Part shown: positions 8,456 through 17,261 of the stretch, in pieces
How the letters are laid out: each line of letters starts with the position of its first letter
Numbering within the stretch: position 1 is the stretch's first letter
Assembly (NCBI GenBank): GCA_016742275.1
Contig: JACVCD010000008.1
Span: 62,001-126,000, forward strand
Origin: Gemmatimonadaceae bacterium
Lineage (GTDB): Bacteria; Gemmatimonadota; Gemmatimonadetes; Gemmatimonadales; Gemmatimonadaceae
Direction of reading: 5' to 3'
DNA: 64,000 nucleotides
The notes under the pieces: model-generated
What the model was told of the DNA's origin: nothing
Database searches by the model: none
The model's input: the letters and a program-made list of their open reading frames with translations, nothing else
Made by a program: the position numbers and the translations under genes

Positions 8456-9137
8456 GACTGTTCTCATTGCTTGCGTGGCGCTGTTTGCGCGGACCGCCGA
8501 GGCGCAGGACTCGCTGCAAGTACCTCTGCCTGTCGACAGCATGTCGTTCGCGCTGCACGTCCGACTCACAAGAGAGCAGCGAAAGGTTCGGGTGGTGCGT
8601 CGCGGTCGGAATCCGCTCAAAGGGGAACTCGCCAGTGTAGACTCCGCCTTTCTCAGCGTACGAACACAAACGGGCGTTCAAGTCATCGAGCTGGCCTCGG
8701 TGGATTCGGTGTGGGTGTACCGGGGAAACAAGGCGAAGGCTCTCGGAGGAACAGTCGCCGTTTTTTGTGGCGGAATTGGAGCATTCACCGGTGCCCTGTT
8801 GCTGAGTGCTCTGGCGGATTCGTACGCGGCCGCGCCGCGCGGGGGACTTATCGGCGGAGTCCTCGGGGCCGTGGTCTGTGGGCTGACTGGTGCATTCGCC
8901 GGCGCGATGGCCGAGCAATGGCAGCTCGTCTTTGTGCGGGAATCGCTTCCTGCGTCGTTGCCTGCTACTTCGCTCTCCCCGCCAGCACCGCCCGCACATC
9001 ATCAAGCGATCCACCAACCGCGCGCAGAGCAACCAGCGCGTGATACAGAAGATCCGCTGTTTCTTCAGCTGCGCGCGCGCGATCACCATCGACACACGCC
9101 GTGGCCAGCTCAACTGCCTCCTCACCAAGCTTCTTGA
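8445..9137 (+). CDS. Hypothetical exported/membrane protein overlapping hisIE in antisense
   Basis: 230 residues. An N-terminal signal ([17 protein letters not shown]) is followed by a basic stretch ([27 protein letters not shown], quoted in part: [13 protein letters not shown]), then two Gly/Ala-rich hydrophobic segments (about 98-118 and 128-147) like a glycine-zipper hairpin. No known family was recognised. After about residue 165 the sequence turns into low-complexity Pro/Gln/His text, and the last 173 bases run antisense to the end of hisIE. The natural end may have been lost by a frameshift or stop mutation, or the tail may be a chance extension. The start overlaps the epimerase stop by 11 bases. 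Confidence 0.5.
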
Positions 9138-9579
9138 GCCGAAGATTGCGATCGGCCAACAGCTTCTGTGTGTAGCTCGGCCTGGCATCGTCAGGTGCGG
9201 ACGCTTGTCGTGCCGCGATTGTTCGATCCAGAGCGCTGAACACGTCAGCACTCAGTGCATCATCGCGAAAGCAGGATGTAGTGCCGTTGTGACACGCCGG
9301 CCCCGCGGGCACAACCCGCGCCAACACGGCATCGGCATCGCAGTCGGCGGTGAGTGACACGACACGCTGCACATTCCCGCTCGTGCCACCCTTATGCCAC
9401 AGGCCGCGACTGCGCGAGCGATAGTGCATCTCGCCAGTACGCAGCGTGTGCTCCAATGCCTCGCGGTCCGCGTGTGCCACCATCAGCACCACACCGCTGT
9501 GCGCATCCTGCGTCACGACCGTCACCAGGCCATTGCCTTTGGTGAAGTCGAGTGTGTCGAGATCAAGCGTTTCACTCAT
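8965..9579 (-). CDS. hisI: Bifunctional phosphoribosyl-AMP cyclohydrolase / phosphoribosyl-ATP pyrophosphatase (HisIE)
   Basis: 204 residues, last gene of the histidine operon, catalysing steps 2 and 3. The HisI half (1-110) shows [20 protein letters not shown], the metal-binding DCDADAV and the zinc cysteines in [11 protein letters not shown]. The usual KGETSGN appears here as KGGTSGN. The HisE half (about 112-204) has [26 protein letters not shown] and the EETADLLYH acidic site typical of the MazG-like pyrophosphatase fold. The start overlaps the hisN stop by four bases (ATGA). The 3' end converges on and overlaps the plus-strand hypothetical gene, and no terminator is visible there. Confidence 0.93.
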
Positions 9580-10364
9580 GTAGATGCCGGTGCAGTATCA
9601 AGCAGCATACGACGTACAACGCCATCGAGCGCGCCATTGGTGACAATTACATCACCACCAAACGCGGTATTCACACCACGCCAGTCGGTAAACACACCGC
9701 CGGCTTCCGTGATGATGGGATGTACCGCTGCCGAGTCCCACGGGTTCATGATGTCATCCGCCATGATCTCAGCGCGTCCGGTGGCCACCAGCAGATAGCC
9801 ATAGCAGTCGCCCCACGTGCGACTCACGCCACACTGTGCAGATAAATCGCGCCACGCGACGCGGCGTTCCGGATGCTGAGGAAATCGTTCGTCGGTGATC
9901 AGCGCGGTAGCTTGGTCCAGCGTAGAAACGTTCGAGACACGCGCCCGCGATCCGTTGGACCAGCAGCCTTCACCAGGCGCTGCGGCGATGATCTCATCCA
10001 CGACGGGATAACACGCCGCGCCAGCCAACACCGTATCACCTTCACAGCAGGCCACCAGTGTGCCCCACAGCGGCACACCACGCACAAAGGCCTTGGTGCC
10101 ATCGATAGGATCGAGAATCCAACGACGTTTGGCGTCCGGACGCACGGTGTCGAATTCTTCTCCGACCAGACCATACGCGGGGAAGCGCGCTTCAAGCCAT
10201 TCACGCGCCTGGCGTTCAGCTTCACGATCAGCAATCGTGACGGGAGATCCATCGCCTTTGGCTTCCACGGCAAAATCGGATCGATACCAACGCATGGCGA
10301 CCGACGAGGCAAAGCGGGCAACATCAGCCGCTGCCTGCATGAGCTGTTCAGGTGTATCGGTCAT
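9576..10364 (-). CDS. hisN: Inositol-monophosphatase-family histidinol-phosphatase (HisN-type)
   Basis: 262 residues of the lithium-sensitive, Mg-dependent IMPase fold. Motifs are GEEF (metal Glu), [20 protein letters not shown] (metal-binding DPIDGT) and the late [17 protein letters not shown] (third metal Asp). Its place between hisF and hisIE, with four-base overlaps on both sides, points to the histidinol-phosphate phosphatase step. That step would otherwise be missing, because HisB here lacks a phosphatase domain. Function is therefore assigned from fold plus operon position. An IMPase acting on another sugar phosphate is the main alternative, but less likely in this context. Confidence 0.88.
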
Positions 10365-11143
10365 GCCGCTGCTCCAAGAGTCGATGAGTCGCGCACGACG
10401 AGACCGGCATCGCGCATTACACGTTTGAGTTGCTGCACGGTGGTCAAGCCATCGTGCAGGATGCCCGCTACCAGCACCGCATCTGCGTGCGCCTGCTGAA
10501 CCGCGTCTACTAAATGCTGCGCTGTTCCCGCACCTCCTGAAGCAATCACCGGCACGTTCACGGCACTCGCCACGGCTCGTGTGATTTCCAGATCGTATCC
10601 CGTGCGAGCACCATCACGATCAATACTGGTGAGCAGAATTTCACCGGCACCCCGCTCCACGCATTCCTGCGCCCACGCCACGGCTTCGAGCGGCGTTTCT
10701 TCGCGTCCGCCTTTCACCCACACCTTGTATACGCCGGCGGCGTTCTTCTTGGCATCGATGCTGGCAACCACGCATTGTGCGCCAAATCGATCAGCCGCTG
10801 CTGTAAGCACCGAAGGATCAGAAACCGCCGCCGAGTTGAGTGACACCTTGTCTGCGCCAGCGCGCAGCGCACGAGCCACATCTTCGGCCGTACGCACGCC
10901 CCCACCAATGGTGAGCGGAATGAACAGACGTTCGGCCGTGCGACGCGCGACATCCAGCAGCGTCGCGCGCTCTTCGCTGCTGGCCGAGATATCGAGAAAA
11001 GTGATTTCGTCGGCGCCCTCCAATTCATAGCGAGTTGCCAGCGCCACGGGGTCACCTACATCACGCAGGCCAACGAAGTTCACGCCCTTCACCACTCGCC
11101 CGCCTTTCACATCCAGGCACACGATGACACGACGCGTCAACAT
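10361..11143 (-). CDS. hisF: Imidazole glycerol phosphate synthase, cyclase subunit (HisF)
   Basis: 260-residue (beta/alpha)8 barrel that uses ammonia from HisH to convert PRFAR to IGP and AICAR. Diagnostic stretches are VIVCLDVKGGRVVKGVNF with the catalytic Asp in CLDVK, LTIGGGVRTAEDV with the first phosphate-binding loop, and ILLTSIDRDGARTGYD carrying the second catalytic Asp, then VIASGGAGT. Length is normal. The start overlaps the hisB stop by one base and the end overlaps hisN by four, so translation is probably coupled along the operon. Confidence 0.95.
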   Translation of the reverse strand: MLTRRVIVCLDVKGGRVVKGVNFVGLRDVGDPVALATRYELEGADEITFLDISASSEERATLLDVARRTAERLFIPLTIGGGVRTAEDVARALRAGADKVSLNSAAVSDPSVLTAAADRFGAQCVVASIDAKKNAAGVYKVWVKGGREETPLEAVAWAQECVERGAGEILLTSIDRDGARTGYDLEITRAVASAVNVPVIASGGAGTAQHLVDAVQQAHADAVLVAGILHDGLTTVQQLKRVMRDAGLVVRDSSTLGAAA

Positions 11144-11700
11144 CAGCGTGCGCCGCCGGTGATGTCGAGTTTCACGGCACCCTTCGTGCTGAACACGGCA
11201 CCTGTTTCCACGAGCGCCTCACGCAAGGCAAAGCCCAGTGCCTTGAACGCCGCTTCGATGATGTGGTGCCGATCCGTTCCGCGCAGCACCCGTACGTGTA
11301 TGGTGGCACGCGCATTGTCTGCAAACGATCGGAAGAAGTGATCGTACAGCTTGGCCGGCAGCGGTCCGCGATAGTACGGGCGTCCACCCATATCCACCAC
11401 GACTTGTACGAGGGCGTCATCCATGGGCACTGTGCGCTCACCATAGCGGGCGCATGTGGCGGGAATGTGCGCCGCAAACGCCTGACCAAGTGCGATGGCA
11501 ACATCCTCGATGAGGTGATGACGCAGATCGCCACGCGCCTGAATGTTGAATGGCACACCACTGTACCGCGACAGGGCGACCAGCATGTGATCCAGGAATG
11601 GCTCGGTGGTGGCGATGGAAGCTTCCACGTTTGGCTCCGCAAGACCGATGCGGATTTGTGTTTCGTTGCTCTCGCGAACCACGACAGTACCGGTACTCAT
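11143..11700 (-). CDS. hisB: Imidazoleglycerol-phosphate dehydratase (monofunctional HisB)
   Basis: 185 residues, slightly short of the 190-200 typical for IGPD but with all manganese-binding blocks: FLDHMLVALSRYSG, DLRHHLIEDVAIALGQAF, and the repeat-related DRHHIIEAAFKALG near the C-terminus. It dehydrates imidazole glycerol phosphate to imidazole acetol phosphate. There is no fused HAD phosphatase domain, consistent with a separate hisN in the same operon. It overlaps hisA by four bases upstream and hisF by one base downstream. Confidence 0.95.
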   Translation of the reverse strand: MSTGTVVVRESNETQIRIGLAEPNVEASIATTEPFLDHMLVALSRYSGVPFNIQARGDLRHHLIEDVAIALGQAFAAHIPATCARYGERTVPMDDALVQVVVDMGGRPYYRGPLPAKLYDHFFRSFADNARATIHVRVLRGTDRHHIIEAAFKALGFALREALVETGAVFSTKGAVKLDITGGAR

Positions 11701-12410
11701 GCGCCAAACTCCTCTGCGAGACGGCGTGCATCAATCACGCCTGTGTAAAGCGCCATGCCCAGTACCGCCCCCGCGAGTCCGCGGTGTTCGAGGGCACGCA
11801 TGTCGTCCAACGAAGTCACGCCACCGGATGCCAGCACCGGCCAACGACTGGCTGCCGCCACATCGTCCATGAGCGGCAAATCGGTGCCCTGCATCTGTCC
11901 CTCCAGATGCACGGCAGTAACCAGCACACCGGCCAACGGCAGGTTGTTGAGTTCTTCCACAAAGTCCAGCACATCGACGCGTGATGTCTCCGCCCAACCC
12001 TTGGTGACCACACGACGCTCCCGCACATCGGCTGCAATGATGAGCTGACCGGGAAACTGCGACGCCATTTCCTCGCGCCATGACTCGTCCTCAACGGCAC
12101 GTGTGCCCACCACGACGTAGGTAGCACCATCGTCGAGCAACCGTTCGATGCGGCTTTCATCGCGTACACCACCACCCACTTGCACGGGCACCTGGGCGTC
12201 GCGCAGCAGATCGCGAATAACCTCGTGGTTGTTGCCGCGACCAGTGGCCGCGTCGAGATCGACCACATGCAGGCGCGGGAAACCGGTGCGTGCCCATTCG
12301 CGCGCGACACCGAGTGGGTCTTCGAGGCGCACGCGCTCTGCGTCGTAGTCACCACCCACCAACTGCACACAGTGACCACCGCGCAGATCCACGGCAGGTA
12401 TCGCGATCAT
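11697..12410 (-). CDS. hisA: ProFAR isomerase (HisA)
   Basis: 237-residue (beta/alpha)8 barrel opening the sugar ring of ProFAR by Amadori rearrangement. The N-terminal IPAVDLRGGHCVQLVGG carries the catalytic Asp of the first strand, and the opposite phosphate-binding loops are PVQVGGGVRDESRIERLL and VLASGGVTSLDDM. The YDAERV/EDPLGVAREW block is also standard. Four-base overlaps with hisH upstream and hisB downstream place it inside the operon. In some actinobacteria the same fold (PriA) also serves tryptophan synthesis; nothing here argues for that. Confidence 0.93.
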   Translation of the reverse strand: MIAIPAVDLRGGHCVQLVGGDYDAERVRLEDPLGVAREWARTGFPRLHVVDLDAATGRGNNHEVIRDLLRDAQVPVQVGGGVRDESRIERLLDDGATYVVVGTRAVEDESWREEMASQFPGQLIIAADVRERRVVTKGWAETSRVDVLDFVEELNNLPLAGVLVTAVHLEGQMQGTDLPLMDDVAAASRWPVLASGGVTSLDDMRALEHRGLAGAVLGMALYTGVIDARRLAEEFGA

Positions 12411-13057
12411 GAGGCTCTCCGCTGCGCTGCAGCGAACTGAAGAAAGGCGCGCACGAAGTTCACGCCGGGAGTGCTGGACTTTTCAGGATGGAACTGTGTG
12501 CCGATGACATTGCCACGTCGCACACTGGCGGGGAAGCGATCCCCCTCATGTGTGCTCCATGCCGATACGGATGACATGGCCTCAATCGTTGGACGGCACA
12601 CGTAGCTGTTGGCGTAGTAGGCCGTACGCAGATCTGCCTCGTGAAGGAGTGGTTCCTGCACGTCATCCAACGCATTCCATCCGATCTGCGGAACACGAAC
12701 AGCCTCGAGTCGCTGCACGCGGCCCGGTACGATGCCCAGGCCATCGCCTTCGCCTTCGTCGCTGGCATCAAACAGCAACTGCATCCCGAGGCAGATACCA
12801 AGTGCCGGGAGACCATTCAGCAGCGCGTCGCGCATGGCGATGCGTCCACCGGCCAGTCGTTCGGCCGCTGGTGCGAATGCTCCAACACCGGGCAGCACGA
12901 CGGCCTGCGTGTCTTGCACAGCACGAGCCGCATCGGTTTCCACACGAACCACCGCGCCACCAGCTTCGAGCGCCTTGATAAGTGAATGGAGATTGCCGGC
13001 GCCGTAGTCGAACAATGCGACCTGCACCGGTTCTTCACGCGTGATCGAGCTGCTCAT
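12407..13057 (-). CDS. hisH: Imidazole glycerol phosphate synthase, glutaminase subunit (HisH)
   Basis: 216-residue class I glutamine amidotransferase that feeds ammonia to HisF. Visible features are VALFDYGAGNLHSLIKALE at the N-terminus, the nucleophile loop ALGICLGMQLLF with its Cys, and the catalytic His/Glu in GTQFHPEKSS. Starts four bases before the hisDC stop and ends four bases into hisA. Length and motif order are those of the family. Confidence 0.95.
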   Translation of the reverse strand: MSSSITREEPVQVALFDYGAGNLHSLIKALEAGGAVVRVETDAARAVQDTQAVVLPGVGAFAPAAERLAGGRIAMRDALLNGLPALGICLGMQLLFDASDEGEGDGLGIVPGRVQRLEAVRVPQIGWNALDDVQEPLLHEADLRTAYYANSYVCRPTIEAMSSVSAWSTHEGDRFPASVRRGNVIGTQFHPEKSSTPGVNFVRAFLQFAAAQRRAS

Positions 13058-15507
13058 GACTGCCTCGCCGTAGACTCTGCGACCACCGAATCAATGGCCG
13101 AATCAAAGGCTGTCAGGAACTGCTCGAGCAATTCCCATGGTCCCACGCTGATACGCAGCGCATCGCCAATGTGCGGCAACGCCGGAAATGGCCGTGCGGC
13201 CACGCCACGTGCGCGCAGCGCCTGACCGATATCCACCGCATTAGGCACGGGAACACAGAGGTAGTTGGCCGACGAAGCGAGTGGTGCAAATCCACGCTCA
13301 CGCATCGCGACGGCGAGGCGTTCGCGATTGGCTACGGCGAGTGCCACGTGTTCGTCCACCCAGACACGGTCTTCGCGAAGCGCGGACAGTGCCACCTGTT
13401 CGGCCATGGCATTCAACTTGTACGGTCCGCGTGACTTCTCCACGTCGCGCACGAGCGCTGGCGACCCAATGCCATAGCCCACGCGAAGGCCCGCCAATCC
13501 GAACGCCTTGGACATGGTGCGAATGACCAGCAGATTGTCGACCCGATTGGCGAGATCCACCGCCGACACTCCGGCAAACTCGGCGTAGGCCTCGTCGAGG
13601 AATACCACACCCGGCGCTTCGCGAATCACACGCTCAATCGTTTCGCGGGCAACCAAAGCGCCGGTGGGATTGTTGGGTGTGCACAGATACAGAATGCGCG
13701 GATTGGCGGCCAGCAGCGCGTCGACATCCGGTTGATGATCCGCGAGCTCGGTGACTCCCACGTAACGCAGCCCATTCATCTGCGCAAAGATCGGGATCAT
13801 GGCAAATGACGGTTCGCTCGAGGCCACGACACTGCCCGGCTCCCCGAATGCCCGCATGGCGCTGTCGAGAATGTCGTCCGAACCACAACCGGTTACGATG
13901 CGATCGGCTGTGGTGCCGACAAAGCGCGCCAACTCCTCCTTGAGTTCCGCGGCATACAGCGAGGGGTATCGCGTGACGCGCGCAGCAGGCGACTCGCGCA
14001 GTGTACGTTCCGCTTCCGGTGGCAGGCCCCAGAGATTGGTGTTGTCGGTCAGGTCGAGTGCAACGGGGGATCTCTTGGGATCATAGAGTGGCACCGCGTC
14101 ATACAGACGACGCGCGAAGGATGTGCGGCTTTCCGTTTTGACCGAATCCTTCATGCTGCCGGATGCGCCACTCCACGCCCGCGCCGCCGCGGCGTGGGCC
14201 GGCAAACTTTCAGAGTCTGCAAATCGCCCCACATCTGCCGACAAGCGGTCAGCGGCAGACGGCGAGACTTCCTGCCACGTCGTCCATCGCACGAAATCGA
14301 GTGTGGACAGGCCCGAATAGCTGCGCCCTGCACCCGCGGTAGGCAGTACATGATTGGCACCCGTCATGTAGTCGCCGAAGGCCACCGAGCTCGACGCACC
14401 GACAAACACTGTGCCCGCGTTACGCAGTGTGGCCAGCGTGCCCTGGCGTTCGGTGTCTCCAACCAGAAGCAGCAGATGTTCTGCCGCCCATTCGTTGGCC
14501 AACGCAACGGCTTCTTCACGTGTCGCACACCAGACAATGGCGCCACGTGCGGCAAGTGACTGTCGCACAATTTCGCCGCGTGGTGTCGATGAGACTTCCA
14601 CGTCCAGTGCGAGTCGAATACGCTCGGAGAGCGCCCGCGCTTCATCACTGCTGCCGAACAACACGGCCAGCACCGCCGCATCCGGATCGTGTTCAGCCTG
14701 CGCGGTCATCTCCCGCGCAATTACGTTGGCGTCGGCGTTCGCCATCGTACTCGTGTCAGCCAGCACCAGTAGTTCACTCGGACCAGCAGGCGCGTCGATG
14801 GCCACGCTGTTCACCAACTGCAGCTTGGCCTCCGCCACATACGCATTGCCCGGTCCCACGATGCGATCGACACGGGGAACGGATGTCGTCCCAAGTGCCA
14901 TGGCCGCCACAGCTCCCGCACCGCCGATGGCAAACACACGATCGACGTTGGCGAGTGCCGCTGCTGCCAACACCACGGGCGATGGCAGTCCATCCTTCCC
15001 CGGCGGTGTGCACACAATCACTTCGCGAACACCAGCCACGCGCGCGGGAATGGCACCCATGAGCAATGAACTCGGGTAGGCGGCACGTCCGCCGGGAGCA
15101 TATATGCCGACGCGTTGCAGTGGGTCGGGACGGCGACCCACCGTGATACCCGGCTCCGGAGTGGACACGATTTCTGTGGGGCGCAATGCTTCATGGACCG
15201 ACGCAATGTTTCGCGCAGCACGTTCGAGTGCGGTGCGCAACGACGTGTCGAGCGCATCAAGTGCCGCATCCCACAGAGCGCGAGGCACTTCGAATGCGGG
15301 CAAGGCAACGCCATCGAACGCCAGGGCAAATTCGCGCAACGCATCATCGCCGCGCGCGCGCACTTGTTCGATCATGTCGCGCGTCCGGGCACGCACGTCA
15401 GCGTTGGTGCTGCTCGCGCGATCCATCAGGACGCGGCGCGTCTCCGCGTCCAGGGAAGACAACGGCCCAACGGCGCGAAGCTCAACCGGAGTAGTGACTC
15501 GTGTCAT
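13054..15507 (-). CDS. hisD: Histidinol dehydrogenase - histidinol-phosphate aminotransferase fusion (HisD-HisC)
   Basis: One uninterrupted frame of 817 residues from the ATG at 15507 (MTRVTTPVEL), four bases after the hisG stop; an ATG 24 codons upstream would overlap hisG and is less likely. Residues 1 to about 445 are HisD: RVGIYAPGGRAAYPSSLLMG, IVGPGNAYVAEAKLQL, IDAPAGPSELLVLAD, WAAEHLLLL and the ending NHVLPTAGAGRSYSGLS. A linker leads at about M452 (codon at 14154) into HisC, a fold-type I PLP aminotransferase: LDLTDNTNLWGLPPE, YLCTPNNPTGALV, FLDEAYAEF and TMSKAFGLAGLRVGY with the Schiff-base Lys. HisC gives histidinol phosphate (step 7) and HisD makes histidine (last two oxidations), so the fused steps are not consecutive. 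An internal start at M452 could also give free HisC. Confidence 0.93.
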   Translation of the reverse strand: MTRVTTPVELRAVGPLSSLDAETRRVLMDRASSTNADVRARTRDMIEQVRARGDDALREFALAFDGVALPAFEVPRALWDAALDALDTSLRTALERAARNIASVHEALRPTEIVSTPEPGITVGRRPDPLQRVGIYAPGGRAAYPSSLLMGAIPARVAGVREVIVCTPPGKDGLPSPVVLAAAALANVDRVFAIGGAGAVAAMALGTTSVPRVDRIVGPGNAYVAEAKLQLVNSVAIDAPAGPSELLVLADTSTMANADANVIAREMTAQAEHDPDAAVLAVLFGSSDEARALSERIRLALDVEVSSTPRGEIVRQSLAARGAIVWCATREEAVALANEWAAEHLLLLVGDTERQGTLATLRNAGTVFVGASSSVAFGDYMTGANHVLPTAGAGRSYSGLSTLDFVRWTTWQEVSPSAADRLSADVGRFADSESLPAHAAAARAWSGASGSMKDSVKTESRTSFARRLYDAVPLYDPKRSPVALDLTDNTNLWGLPPEAERTLRESPAARVTRYPSLYAAELKEELARFVGTTADRIVTGCGSDDILDSAMRAFGEPGSVVASSEPSFAMIPIFAQMNGLRYVGVTELADHQPDVDALLAANPRILYLCTPNNPTGALVARETIERVIREAPGVVFLDEAYAEFAGVSAVDLANRVDNLLVIRTMSKAFGLAGLRVGYGIGSPALVRDVEKSRGPYKLNAMAEQVALSALREDRVWVDEHVALAVANRERLAVAMRERGFAPLASSANYLCVPVPNAVDIGQALRARGVAARPFPALPHIGDALRISVGPWELLEQFLTAFDSAIDSVVAESTARQS

Positions 15508-15511
15508 GAGA

Positions 15512-16402
15512 TCACGGCACCAGGCGTTCGATGCGCGTGACGAGAATGCCTTCGGCGCCCAAGCCTCGCAGTTGCGCAATGGTGCGATAAATCGTGTCGG
15601 CGCTCACAACCGCGTGTACGGCTACATACTTGCCGTGATTGGCGATGTCGATCACGGTCGGACCATTGAGCCCGGGTAGCACACCGCGCACCTGCGGCAA
15701 CACATCGCGCGGCACATTGGCCATGAGGTAGCGCTGACCGCGCGCACGAATGACCGAACCCAGCGCGGTGGCCAGTTCTTCAAGCGCACGAAGTCGCTCT
15801 TCGGCTTCACTGGCAGTCCCGCGGCGTGGTCCATCGACCGCCGTGATGAGGTGGGCGCTCGAGCGCAGCACCGTGTCGATTTCGCGGAGGCCATTCACCC
15901 GAAGCGTGGAGCCGGTGGAGGTGAGGTCGACCACGATGTCGGCGATGCCCAGGTGCGGGGCGATCTCAGCCGCACCCGACACCGGCACGATGTCGACCGG
16001 ACGACCCCGTTCGGCAAAAAAGCGCCGGGCGATGTTGGGGAACACCGTGGCTACCCGTACCGGTGCACCGTCCTGCCCAATGTCCTCCACCGACCGAACG
16101 CCCGAGTCCTCGCGGGCGGCTACGACCAGCCGGCAGCGGCCAAACCCGAGATCGAGGTGCGAGGTGAGCTCCCGTCCGGACTCGTTCACCAGATCCCATC
16201 CCGTCACGCCGACATCCGCGGCGCCGTCGGCCACAAATTCGGGGATGTCCTGGGCGCGAACAAAAATCGCCTCGAACTCACCGCCCAGTGAGGCAGTGAG
16301 GGCGCGTTCGCCGGACGACCGGACTTCGAGACCGGCGTCGTTGAACAGTTCGCGGGTGTCTTCGCTGAGACGCCCTTTGTTGGGCAGTGCGATGCGGAGC
16401 AT
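15512..16402 (-). CDS. hisG: ATP phosphoribosyltransferase, long form (HisG)
   Basis: 296 residues from the ATG at 16402 (MLRIALPNKGRLSEDTREL); the frame is open further upstream, but that part holds the leader and terminator. First enzyme of the pathway, joining ATP and PRPP. Catalytic domains show the N-terminal PNKGRL loop, DVGVTGWDLV, and the PRPP loop IVDLTSTGSTLRVNGL. The extra C-terminal 75 residues (NVPRDVLPQVRGVLPGLNGPTV..., ending RIERLVP) form the ferredoxin-like regulatory domain of the long HisG type, so it should be histidine-inhibited on its own and need no HisZ. First structural gene after the attenuator. Confidence 0.95.
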   Translation of the reverse strand: MLRIALPNKGRLSEDTRELFNDAGLEVRSSGERALTASLGGEFEAIFVRAQDIPEFVADGAADVGVTGWDLVNESGRELTSHLDLGFGRCRLVVAAREDSGVRSVEDIGQDGAPVRVATVFPNIARRFFAERGRPVDIVPVSGAAEIAPHLGIADIVVDLTSTGSTLRVNGLREIDTVLRSSAHLITAVDGPRRGTASEAEERLRALEELATALGSVIRARGQRYLMANVPRDVLPQVRGVLPGLNGPTVIDIANHGKYVAVHAVVSADTIYRTIAQLRGLGAEGILVTRIERLVP

Positions 16403-16442: not shown

Positions 16443-16477
16443 CAAAACAAAAAAGGCCCGTCCGAAGGGACGGGCCT
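16443..16477 (-). terminator. Rho-independent terminator of the his attenuator
   Basis: Read leftward: AGGCCCGTCC, loop CTTC, GGACGGGCCT, then TTTTTTGTTTT. This is a perfect 10-bp GC-rich stem plus T-run, 40 bp before the hisG start and 40 bp after the hisL stop. No complete structural gene ends just upstream on this strand, so it can only serve to stop transcription entering the his operon. The 5' arm CCCGTC (bases 16469-16474) can instead pair with GACGGG inside hisL (16546-16551), a plausible antiterminator. Confidence 0.9.
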
Positions 16478-16517
16478 GAGGTCGCTTGTGTTCCGGGGAT
16501 CGGAATGCCGCTGTTTC

Positions 16518-16601
16518 TTACCCCATAACGCACAAGGCGCCCCGACCCGTCGGGCCGTGGCCATGATGCGTATGATGGTGGGCGGAGCAGAAACGGCGCA
16601 T
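16518..16601 (-). CDS. hisL: His operon leader peptide (27 aa, six His in eight residues)
   Basis: A 28-codon frame from ATG at 16601 to TAA at 16518 encodes MRRFCSA-HHHTHHGH-GPTGRGALCVMG. The His-rich block (codons 8-15) is followed by a short hairpin (CCCGA/TCGGG), a possible antiterminator segment and then the rho-independent terminator ahead of hisG. This is the classic ribosome-mediated attenuation layout: when charged tRNA-His is scarce the ribosome stalls on the His codons and the terminator cannot form. No clear Shine-Dalgarno is visible; the candidate promoter would start the RNA almost at the ATG, so translation may be leaderless. The frame continues upstream as an antisense shadow of the cupredoxin gene; only this last part is proposed as real. 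Confidence 0.88.
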   Translation of the reverse strand: MRRFCSAHHHTHHGHGPTGRGALCVMG

Positions 16602-16610
16602 AGTCTTGGG

Positions 16611-16639
16611 ACGGTAGTGCTCGACCGTAAGGTCGTCAA
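16611..16639 (-). promoter_or_regulatory. Candidate sigma-70 promoter for hisL-hisG
   Basis: On the minus strand, TTGACG (16639-16634), 17 bp, then TACCGT (16616-16611), nine bases before the hisL ATG. The -35 is good and the -10 is poor. A 14-base inverted repeat (CGACC-TTAC-GGTCG, 16622-16635) overlaps the -35 and fills much of the spacer, where a repressor could sit. Confidence 0.4.
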
Positions 16640-16766: not shown

Positions 16767-17261
16767 ATGCGGTTTCTCGGCTTTGCGGTTGTGACGGGCG
16801 CGGCGATCCTGCTCGGCGCGTGTGGTGGTGGCGACAAGGCGGCGACGGATACGGCGGCTGCGCCTGCGGCTGATTCGGCTGCGCCCGCTGCGGCGGCGCC
16901 GGCTGGTGCGATGGCCCCGATCACGGGCACCACGCACACGATCAACATGGTGGGCGATGGTCAGGGTTACCGCTTCGAGCCGGCTGACCTCACGATCAAG
17001 GCCGGCGACGGCATCAAGTTCGTGTTCGTGAGCGGCGGCCCGCACAACGTGGCGTTTGATCCCGCCACGCTGTCGCCGGAAGCCAAGTCGGCCCTCATCG
17101 CCAACATGCCGGAGCAGGCGGGTGAGCTGACGGGCAAGATGATGCTGAACGCCAACGAAGAGTACACGGTGTCGTTCGCCAACGTCCCGGCTGGTGTGTA
17201 TGACTACTTCTGCACGCCGCACCTTGCGATGAACATGAAGGGCAAGATCACCGTTCAGTAA
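16767..17261 (+). CDS. Cupredoxin (plastocyanin-like) lipoprotein
   Basis: 164 residues with RBS GGAGG (16753-16757). A lipoprotein signal ends in LLGAC (lipobox, Cys19), followed by an Ala/Pro-rich flexible linker to about residue 50. The rest is a blue-copper fold: FEPADLTIKAGDGIKFVFVSGGPHNVAF supplies the first His ligand (in GPHNVAF), and YDYFCTPHLAMNMKGKITV gives Cys, His and Met. All four type-1 copper ligands are present, so a periplasmic electron carrier anchored to a membrane is expected. It is transcribed alone, divergent from the his leader and closed by its own terminator. Confidence 0.92.
   Translation: MRFLGFAVVTGAAILLGACGGGDKAATDTAAAPAADSAAPAAAAPAGAMAPITGTTHTINMVGDGQGYRFEPADLTIKAGDGIKFVFVSGGPHNVAFDPATLSPEAKSALIANMPEQAGELTGKMMLNANEEYTVSFANVPAGVYDYFCTPHLAMNMKGKITVQ

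Follow-up and report, generated by a model that had tools for sequence, protein, structure and literature searches.

A candidate ribosome-mediated attenuator, probably leaderless, ahead of the his operon in Gemmatimonadota

A His-rich leader and a terminator ahead of hisG

Directly upstream of hisG in a Gemmatimonadaceae genome, a short reading frame crowded with histidine codons is followed by an intrinsic terminator. This raises the question of whether the his operon is controlled by a ribosome-mediated transcription attenuator, as an initial annotation of the 64-kb stretch of DNA analysed here (the window) had proposed. Conservation, an alternative RNA pairing and folding all support this proposal computationally, and we regard it as very likely that the element is such an attenuator, by which operon expression would be tied to charged tRNA-His. 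The genes of the operon, in their order from the first, are as follows:

15512–16402, minus strand: hisG, ATP phosphoribosyltransferase, first gene of the operon (TIGR00070 and PF01634/PF08029 profile matches)
13054–15507, minus strand: hisD-hisC in a single reading frame, histidinol dehydrogenase plus aminotransferase (profile domains)
12407–13057, minus strand: hisH (profile matches)
11697–12410, minus strand: hisA (profile matches)
11143–11700, minus strand: hisB, IGPD (profile matches)
10361–11143, minus strand: hisF (profile matches)
9576–10364, minus strand: hisN-like histidinol-phosphatase (TIGR02067, 272.1 bits, slightly below the cut-off of 275.15)
8965–9579, minus strand: hisIE, last gene of the operon (profile matches)

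The start and stop codons along this chain from hisG to hisIE mostly overlap, and one leader therefore heads the whole pathway. The neighbouring reading frame on the other side (16767–17261) lies on the plus strand and is directed away from the his operon. The hisD-hisC frame is an apparent gene fusion of 817 aa, with Histidinol_dh at residues 30–443 and Aminotran_1_2 at residues 485–800; a comparable long frame was seen in one other locus (L042), and the two genes are separate in most relatives checked.

Between this operon and its divergent neighbour lie the following parts:

16518–16601, minus strand: leader peptide reading frame (hisL-like), 27 aa, MRRFCSAHHHTHHGHGPTGRGALCVMG, stop codon TAA (ORF list and translation; conserved in relatives)
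16557–16580, minus strand: putative regulatory His-codon stretch, six His in HHHTHHGH (translation; shuffle test)
16454–16477, minus strand: intrinsic terminator, AGGCCCGTCC-CTTC-GGACGGGCCT, a perfect 10-bp stem closed by a CTTC loop, then a T-run up to about 16446 (terminator search)

The leader frame, with six His in eight codons, and the terminator 40 nt past its stop codon were thus found as originally annotated, whereas the distance from the terminator to hisG, put at 40 bp, proved to be 51 nt (hisG start at 16402). When the 300 nt ahead of hisG were dinucleotide-shuffled 3000 times, no shuffle contained six His in nine codons, and on both strands of the whole window a single 300-nt tile reached this density. 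When the peptide was compared with the leader-peptide families of Pfam and NCBIfam, no profile matched, which is a weak test for a peptide this short.

Relatives were fetched by the similarity of their HisG to that of the window, and the upstream regions were then compared. This gave 136 distinct regions from Gemmatimonadota, Myxococcota and Eisenbacteria, which are not independent events because they were chosen by HisG similarity and include near relatives. With a criterion of at least four His in nine codons, a His-rich leader preceded hisG in 133 of them, across all three phyla. A terminator was present in 127 of these 133 leader-bearing loci, the remaining six having none by the search used; it lies at a median of 34 nt after the leader stop codon and 42 nt before hisG, and in most loci it has the arm GGCCCGTCC. 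Their absence from close relatives had been named as a finding against attenuation; the His-rich frame and the terminator are kept upstream of hisG in close and distant relatives alike. The usual leader pattern is HHHxHHxHGPTGRG, with six as the commonest number of His. Family leaders use both His codons about equally (CAT 399, CAC 371), and a His-run pattern fixed to CAC codons did not pick up the leader in the source genome.

Alternative pairing and the predicted switch

If the element is an attenuator, part of the leader should be able to pair with the terminator in place of the terminator's own stem. Such a pairing had been noted between CCCGTC and GACGGG. It is indeed present, extends to 8 bp (GACGGGTC with GGCCCGTC) and continues into a long hairpin; in RNA letters, ACGGGUC pairs with GGCCCGU and further on. 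Both folding, which had been suggested as a check, and comparison support it. The two arms are:

16537–16550, minus strand: antiterminator 5′ arm within the leader reading frame, ACGGGUCGGGGCGC, codons for TGRGA (pairing analysis and folding)
16470–16485, minus strand: antiterminator 3′ arm, GCGACCUCAGGCCCGU, overlapping the terminator 5′ arm (pairing analysis and folding)

The resulting hairpin of about 80 nt (16550–16470) takes up the second half of the leader frame and the stretch up to the terminator. Its predicted energy in the window is −36.0 kcal/mol (z −2.3), and among the 127 loci with a terminator the medians are −39 kcal/mol and z −2.8, with z below −2 in 85%. The leader arm keeps a near-constant distance to the first His codon in these loci (median 30 nt), and in 117 of them six or all seven of the core pairs with the terminator 5′ arm can form. 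When the alignment was extended to a 12-pair helix, 81.9% of its cells were paired, compared with a shuffled mean of 78.1, and none of 500 shuffles reached this value; slid versions of the alignment gave 32–50%. Furthermore, 66 cells had changed on both sides, twice the mean of 33 obtained by shuffling, and none of the 500 shuffles gave as many. The pairing result held after thinning to 71 sequences at 70% identity, and clear compensated cases were found, such as GACAGG with CCTGTC in L141 and GGCGGGCC with GGCCCGCC in L015. Within Gemmatimonas, 97.3% of cells were paired (0 of 500 shuffles reached this; 22–48% when slid), and two pairs with double changes were seen, which is not above shuffles, because the pairing core is nearly invariant in the genus. 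The stronger covariation support, as read from the alignment, comes from the distant loci. The analysis shows the parts, their conservation and the alternative pairing.

The pairing also bears on the peptide itself. One could suppose that the His-rich frame encodes an independent small protein, for example a metal-binding one, with a terminator of its own and ahead of hisG by coincidence; the peptide is after all rich in His, stops before a strong terminator and carries a conserved (P)TGRG motif. However, this motif is accounted for by the RNA, because its coding sequence ACGGGTCGGG is the antiterminator arm and co-varies with the terminator: where the terminator arm differs, the TGRG position varies along with it, reading AGR, DGS or TGL in other loci. 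The N- and C-termini of the peptide vary freely among relatives. The comparison thus suggests that TGRG is dictated by RNA pairing and not by peptide function. The position ahead of hisG in nearly all loci of three phyla likewise speaks against coincidence. Our own covariance model, built from 23 Gemmatimonas-type sequences and too narrow for the rest of the family, matched 12 of 99 family genomes at one place each, always directly upstream of hisG, and no second site of the element was found in these 12 genomes; six of them lie outside the genus, and the source genome gave one match. We consider an independent small protein very improbable.

How a ribosome on the leader would affect the hairpin was modelled by folding RNA that ends with the terminator 5′ arm while a ribosome footprint was placed codon by codon; taking the first base of the A-site codon as reference, this footprint spans 17 nt upstream and 13 nt downstream. 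The scan represents equilibrium folding before the terminator 3′ arm is made, with an assumed footprint and no kinetics. In the window, the predicted probability of the antiterminator was 0.97 with the A site on His 1–5, 0.47 on the next Gly and 0.00 from the sixth His onward; the family median was about 0.85 and dropped to 0 at the same place. The predicted switch point is therefore reached where the His run ends. Past the run the window value was at most 0.31, and it was 0.01 on the stop codon. Near the stop codon the antiterminator was predicted to re-form partly in relatives, to about 0.4–0.5 (the genus median was 0.38 at the window's stop-codon offset), since in this model the RNA behind the ribosome may re-pair. 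With no ribosome on the RNA, the window was predicted to be terminated (0.005), and the relatives varied (quartiles 0–0.82).

These features permit a mechanism to be proposed, in which expression of the whole his operon would depend on charged tRNA-His. When histidine is short, the ribosome would stall on the His codons (codons 8–15) and leave the rest of the leader free to pair with the stretch before and into the terminator 5′ arm; with the long antiterminator hairpin formed, RNA polymerase would read through into hisG. When histidine is ample, the ribosome would move on past the His codons to the antiterminator 5′ arm and the stop codon and so block the hairpin; the terminator would then fold and end transcription. 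We infer the histidine response and the direction of the switch from the folding and from known attenuators, and the same applies to the transcription start described below.

Control by a T-box, a histidine-binding RNA or an RNA-binding protein, with the reading frame merely a spacer, would also involve a long conserved hairpin and a terminator. Against this, no Rfam family reached threshold in the window at gathering or permissive settings, the weak sRNA-type matches being driven by the terminator, and the His run, at whose end the predicted folding switch lies, ranks with the best-conserved parts of the element. There is accordingly little to recommend such control over a ribosome-mediated attenuator, and we give it only a slight chance. 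Three features that define the attenuator class were found in silico: a reading frame rich in the product amino acid, a terminator before the first gene, and a mutually exclusive antiterminator that involves the leader frame. The fourth, an expression response to starvation for the amino acid by way of leader translation, is predicted for the element.

The predicted promoter and start of the leader

A simple sigma-70 scan reported no promoter, owing to the GC-rich −10 boxes, which emerged once loci were compared. This comparison drew on 88 loci in which a TTGAC-type −35 box is followed, 17–18 nt further on, by a −10-like box. The boxes of the window are:

16634–16639, minus strand: predicted −35 box, TTGACG (spacer of 17 nt; TTGAC in the corresponding position of the 88 promoter-scored loci)
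16611–16616, minus strand: predicted −10 box, TACCGT (weak match to the E. coli consensus; locus comparison)

The leader ATG of the window lies 9 nt after the −10 box, with transcription expected to start at about 16604, 3 nt before the ATG. A transcription start past the terminator had been named as a finding that would speak against attenuation; the promoter predicted from the sequence is situated ahead of the leader. The start codon was located 5–11 nt after the −10 box in each of the 88 loci, mostly at 6, 7, 9 or 10 nt, and in 85 of the 88 it was the first ATG or GTG in any frame after that box. A Shine-Dalgarno-like sequence before the leader start was seen in none of the 88. A transcription start some 7 nt past the −10 box would leave a 5′ UTR of 0–4 nt. 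The leader frame is thus probably leaderless, given the start codon 5–11 nt past the −10 box and the missing Shine-Dalgarno sequence in these loci. Transcription would begin at or a few nucleotides before the leader ATG, and the ribosome would load directly on the leaderless 5′ end.

The attenuator might instead work with a longer 5′ UTR and a conventional ribosome-binding site, as the promoter is deduced from the sequence. The uniform spacing to the −10 box, the lack of Shine-Dalgarno-like sequences and the use of the first available start codon run counter to this arrangement, which we therefore judge unlikely, and we retain the leaderless start as the favoured reading.

Relation to known attenuators and distribution

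His-leader attenuators have been reported for gammaproteobacteria, and a survey by Vitreschak et al. in 2004 (FEMS Microbiol Lett) reportedly extended to proteobacteria, some Bacteroidetes/Chlorobi and Thermotogales. The initial annotation had likened the present element to the enterobacterial his layout. This holds for the His-codon leader, the terminator before hisG, the antiterminator pairing and the control of a whole operon, which are shared with hisL (RF00514). It does not hold for the remaining anatomy: here the His codons are interrupted (HHHxHHxH), the predicted transcription start falls on the start codon or beside it, probably with no 5′ UTR and with no Shine-Dalgarno sequence, and there is one long antiterminator hairpin, whereas the E. 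coli his leader forms several alternative stems. A single antiterminator hairpin is closer to the logic of trp attenuators. The Rfam model for His_leader (RF00514), proposed as a check, did not match anywhere in the source genome, although it did match E. coli as a positive control.

A leaderless ribosome-mediated attenuator is known from Sinorhizobium meliloti, in which the trpL RNA begins at the ATG of the leader frame (PMC7298713). The leaderless start, predicted for the his element, would be common to both; trpL, in contrast, has Trp codons, precedes trpE(G) and belongs to alphaproteobacteria. In Firmicutes, PMC9413887 describes predicted his attenuators with 3–5 His codons and a terminator/antiterminator (Bacillus cereus group, Eubacteriales, Erysipelotrichales), and PMC2965389 describes His leaders before hisS paralogues in bacilli. 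These belong to another phylum and resemble the present element in layout, with no demonstrated sequence relation. As of 2010, the latter source gave Proteobacteria and Actinobacteria as the only groups with known leader-peptide systems, and neither text, as far as accessible, treats attenuators of Gemmatimonadota. No report of a his attenuator in Gemmatimonadota or Myxococcota was found in the literature searched, which mostly excluded subscription papers. The novelty claimed for the phylum thus stands to the extent that no report was found, but the device is not peculiar to the source genome. The mechanism is classical; what is new, so far as the literature could be checked, is its setting and its anatomy.

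Beyond the compared loci, leaders were also found ahead of some 40 additional hisG genes of the window's hisG lineage in Myxococcota and Eisenbacteria. Between Gemmatimonadota and part of the Myxococcota, HisG of the window type reaches 75% identity; in other Myxococcota, HisG stays at 46% or less. The window type occurs in 7 of 47 genomes of the Eisenbacteria phylum at 61–72% identity. In a HisG tree the window type stands apart from most divergent HisG, with the order of phyla too unresolved for a direction of transfer. From these sequence comparisons, transfer of hisG together with its leader between phyla is plausible. In two records, titled Comamonas sp. KCTC 72670 (L084) and Candidatus Kuenenia stuttgartiensis (L042), the hisG genes and their leaders are of myxobacterial and gemmatimonad type, and the titles are probably wrong.

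Very divergent hisG genes (about 29–34% identical to that of the window) of Myxococcota and Gemmatimonadaceae also had His-run frames upstream (L239, MNSCVHHHHHHHQTRGVG; L240; L252; L241 and L242 in Gemmatimonadaceae); upstream of the divergent hisG of L237, L238 and L251 no His-run leader was found. These leaders suggest that his attenuation is wider still. Within the source genome attenuation may not extend to trp, since inspection by eye revealed no obvious Trp-rich leader before trpE (L173). The large subunit of acetolactate synthase (TIGR00118, ilvB) is absent from this genome, which is 99.6% complete, while the model matched 14 of 14 control genomes; branched-chain amino acid auxotrophy is possible.

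We think it likely that histidine synthesis across Gemmatimonadota is as a rule regulated by a leaderless his attenuator with a single hairpin, which Myxococcota and Eisenbacteria would share by way of a common hisG lineage. Ribosome-mediated his attenuation would then be far older or more mobile than the Proteobacteria-centred picture implies, with a start codon at +1 built in. A phylum in which little is known of gene regulation thereby gains a well-supported switch for amino-acid control, and an attenuator class missed by Rfam is added. Moreover, with ribosomes loading on a leaderless 5′ end, the element would be a simple natural system whose coupling of transcription and translation is timed by that loading.
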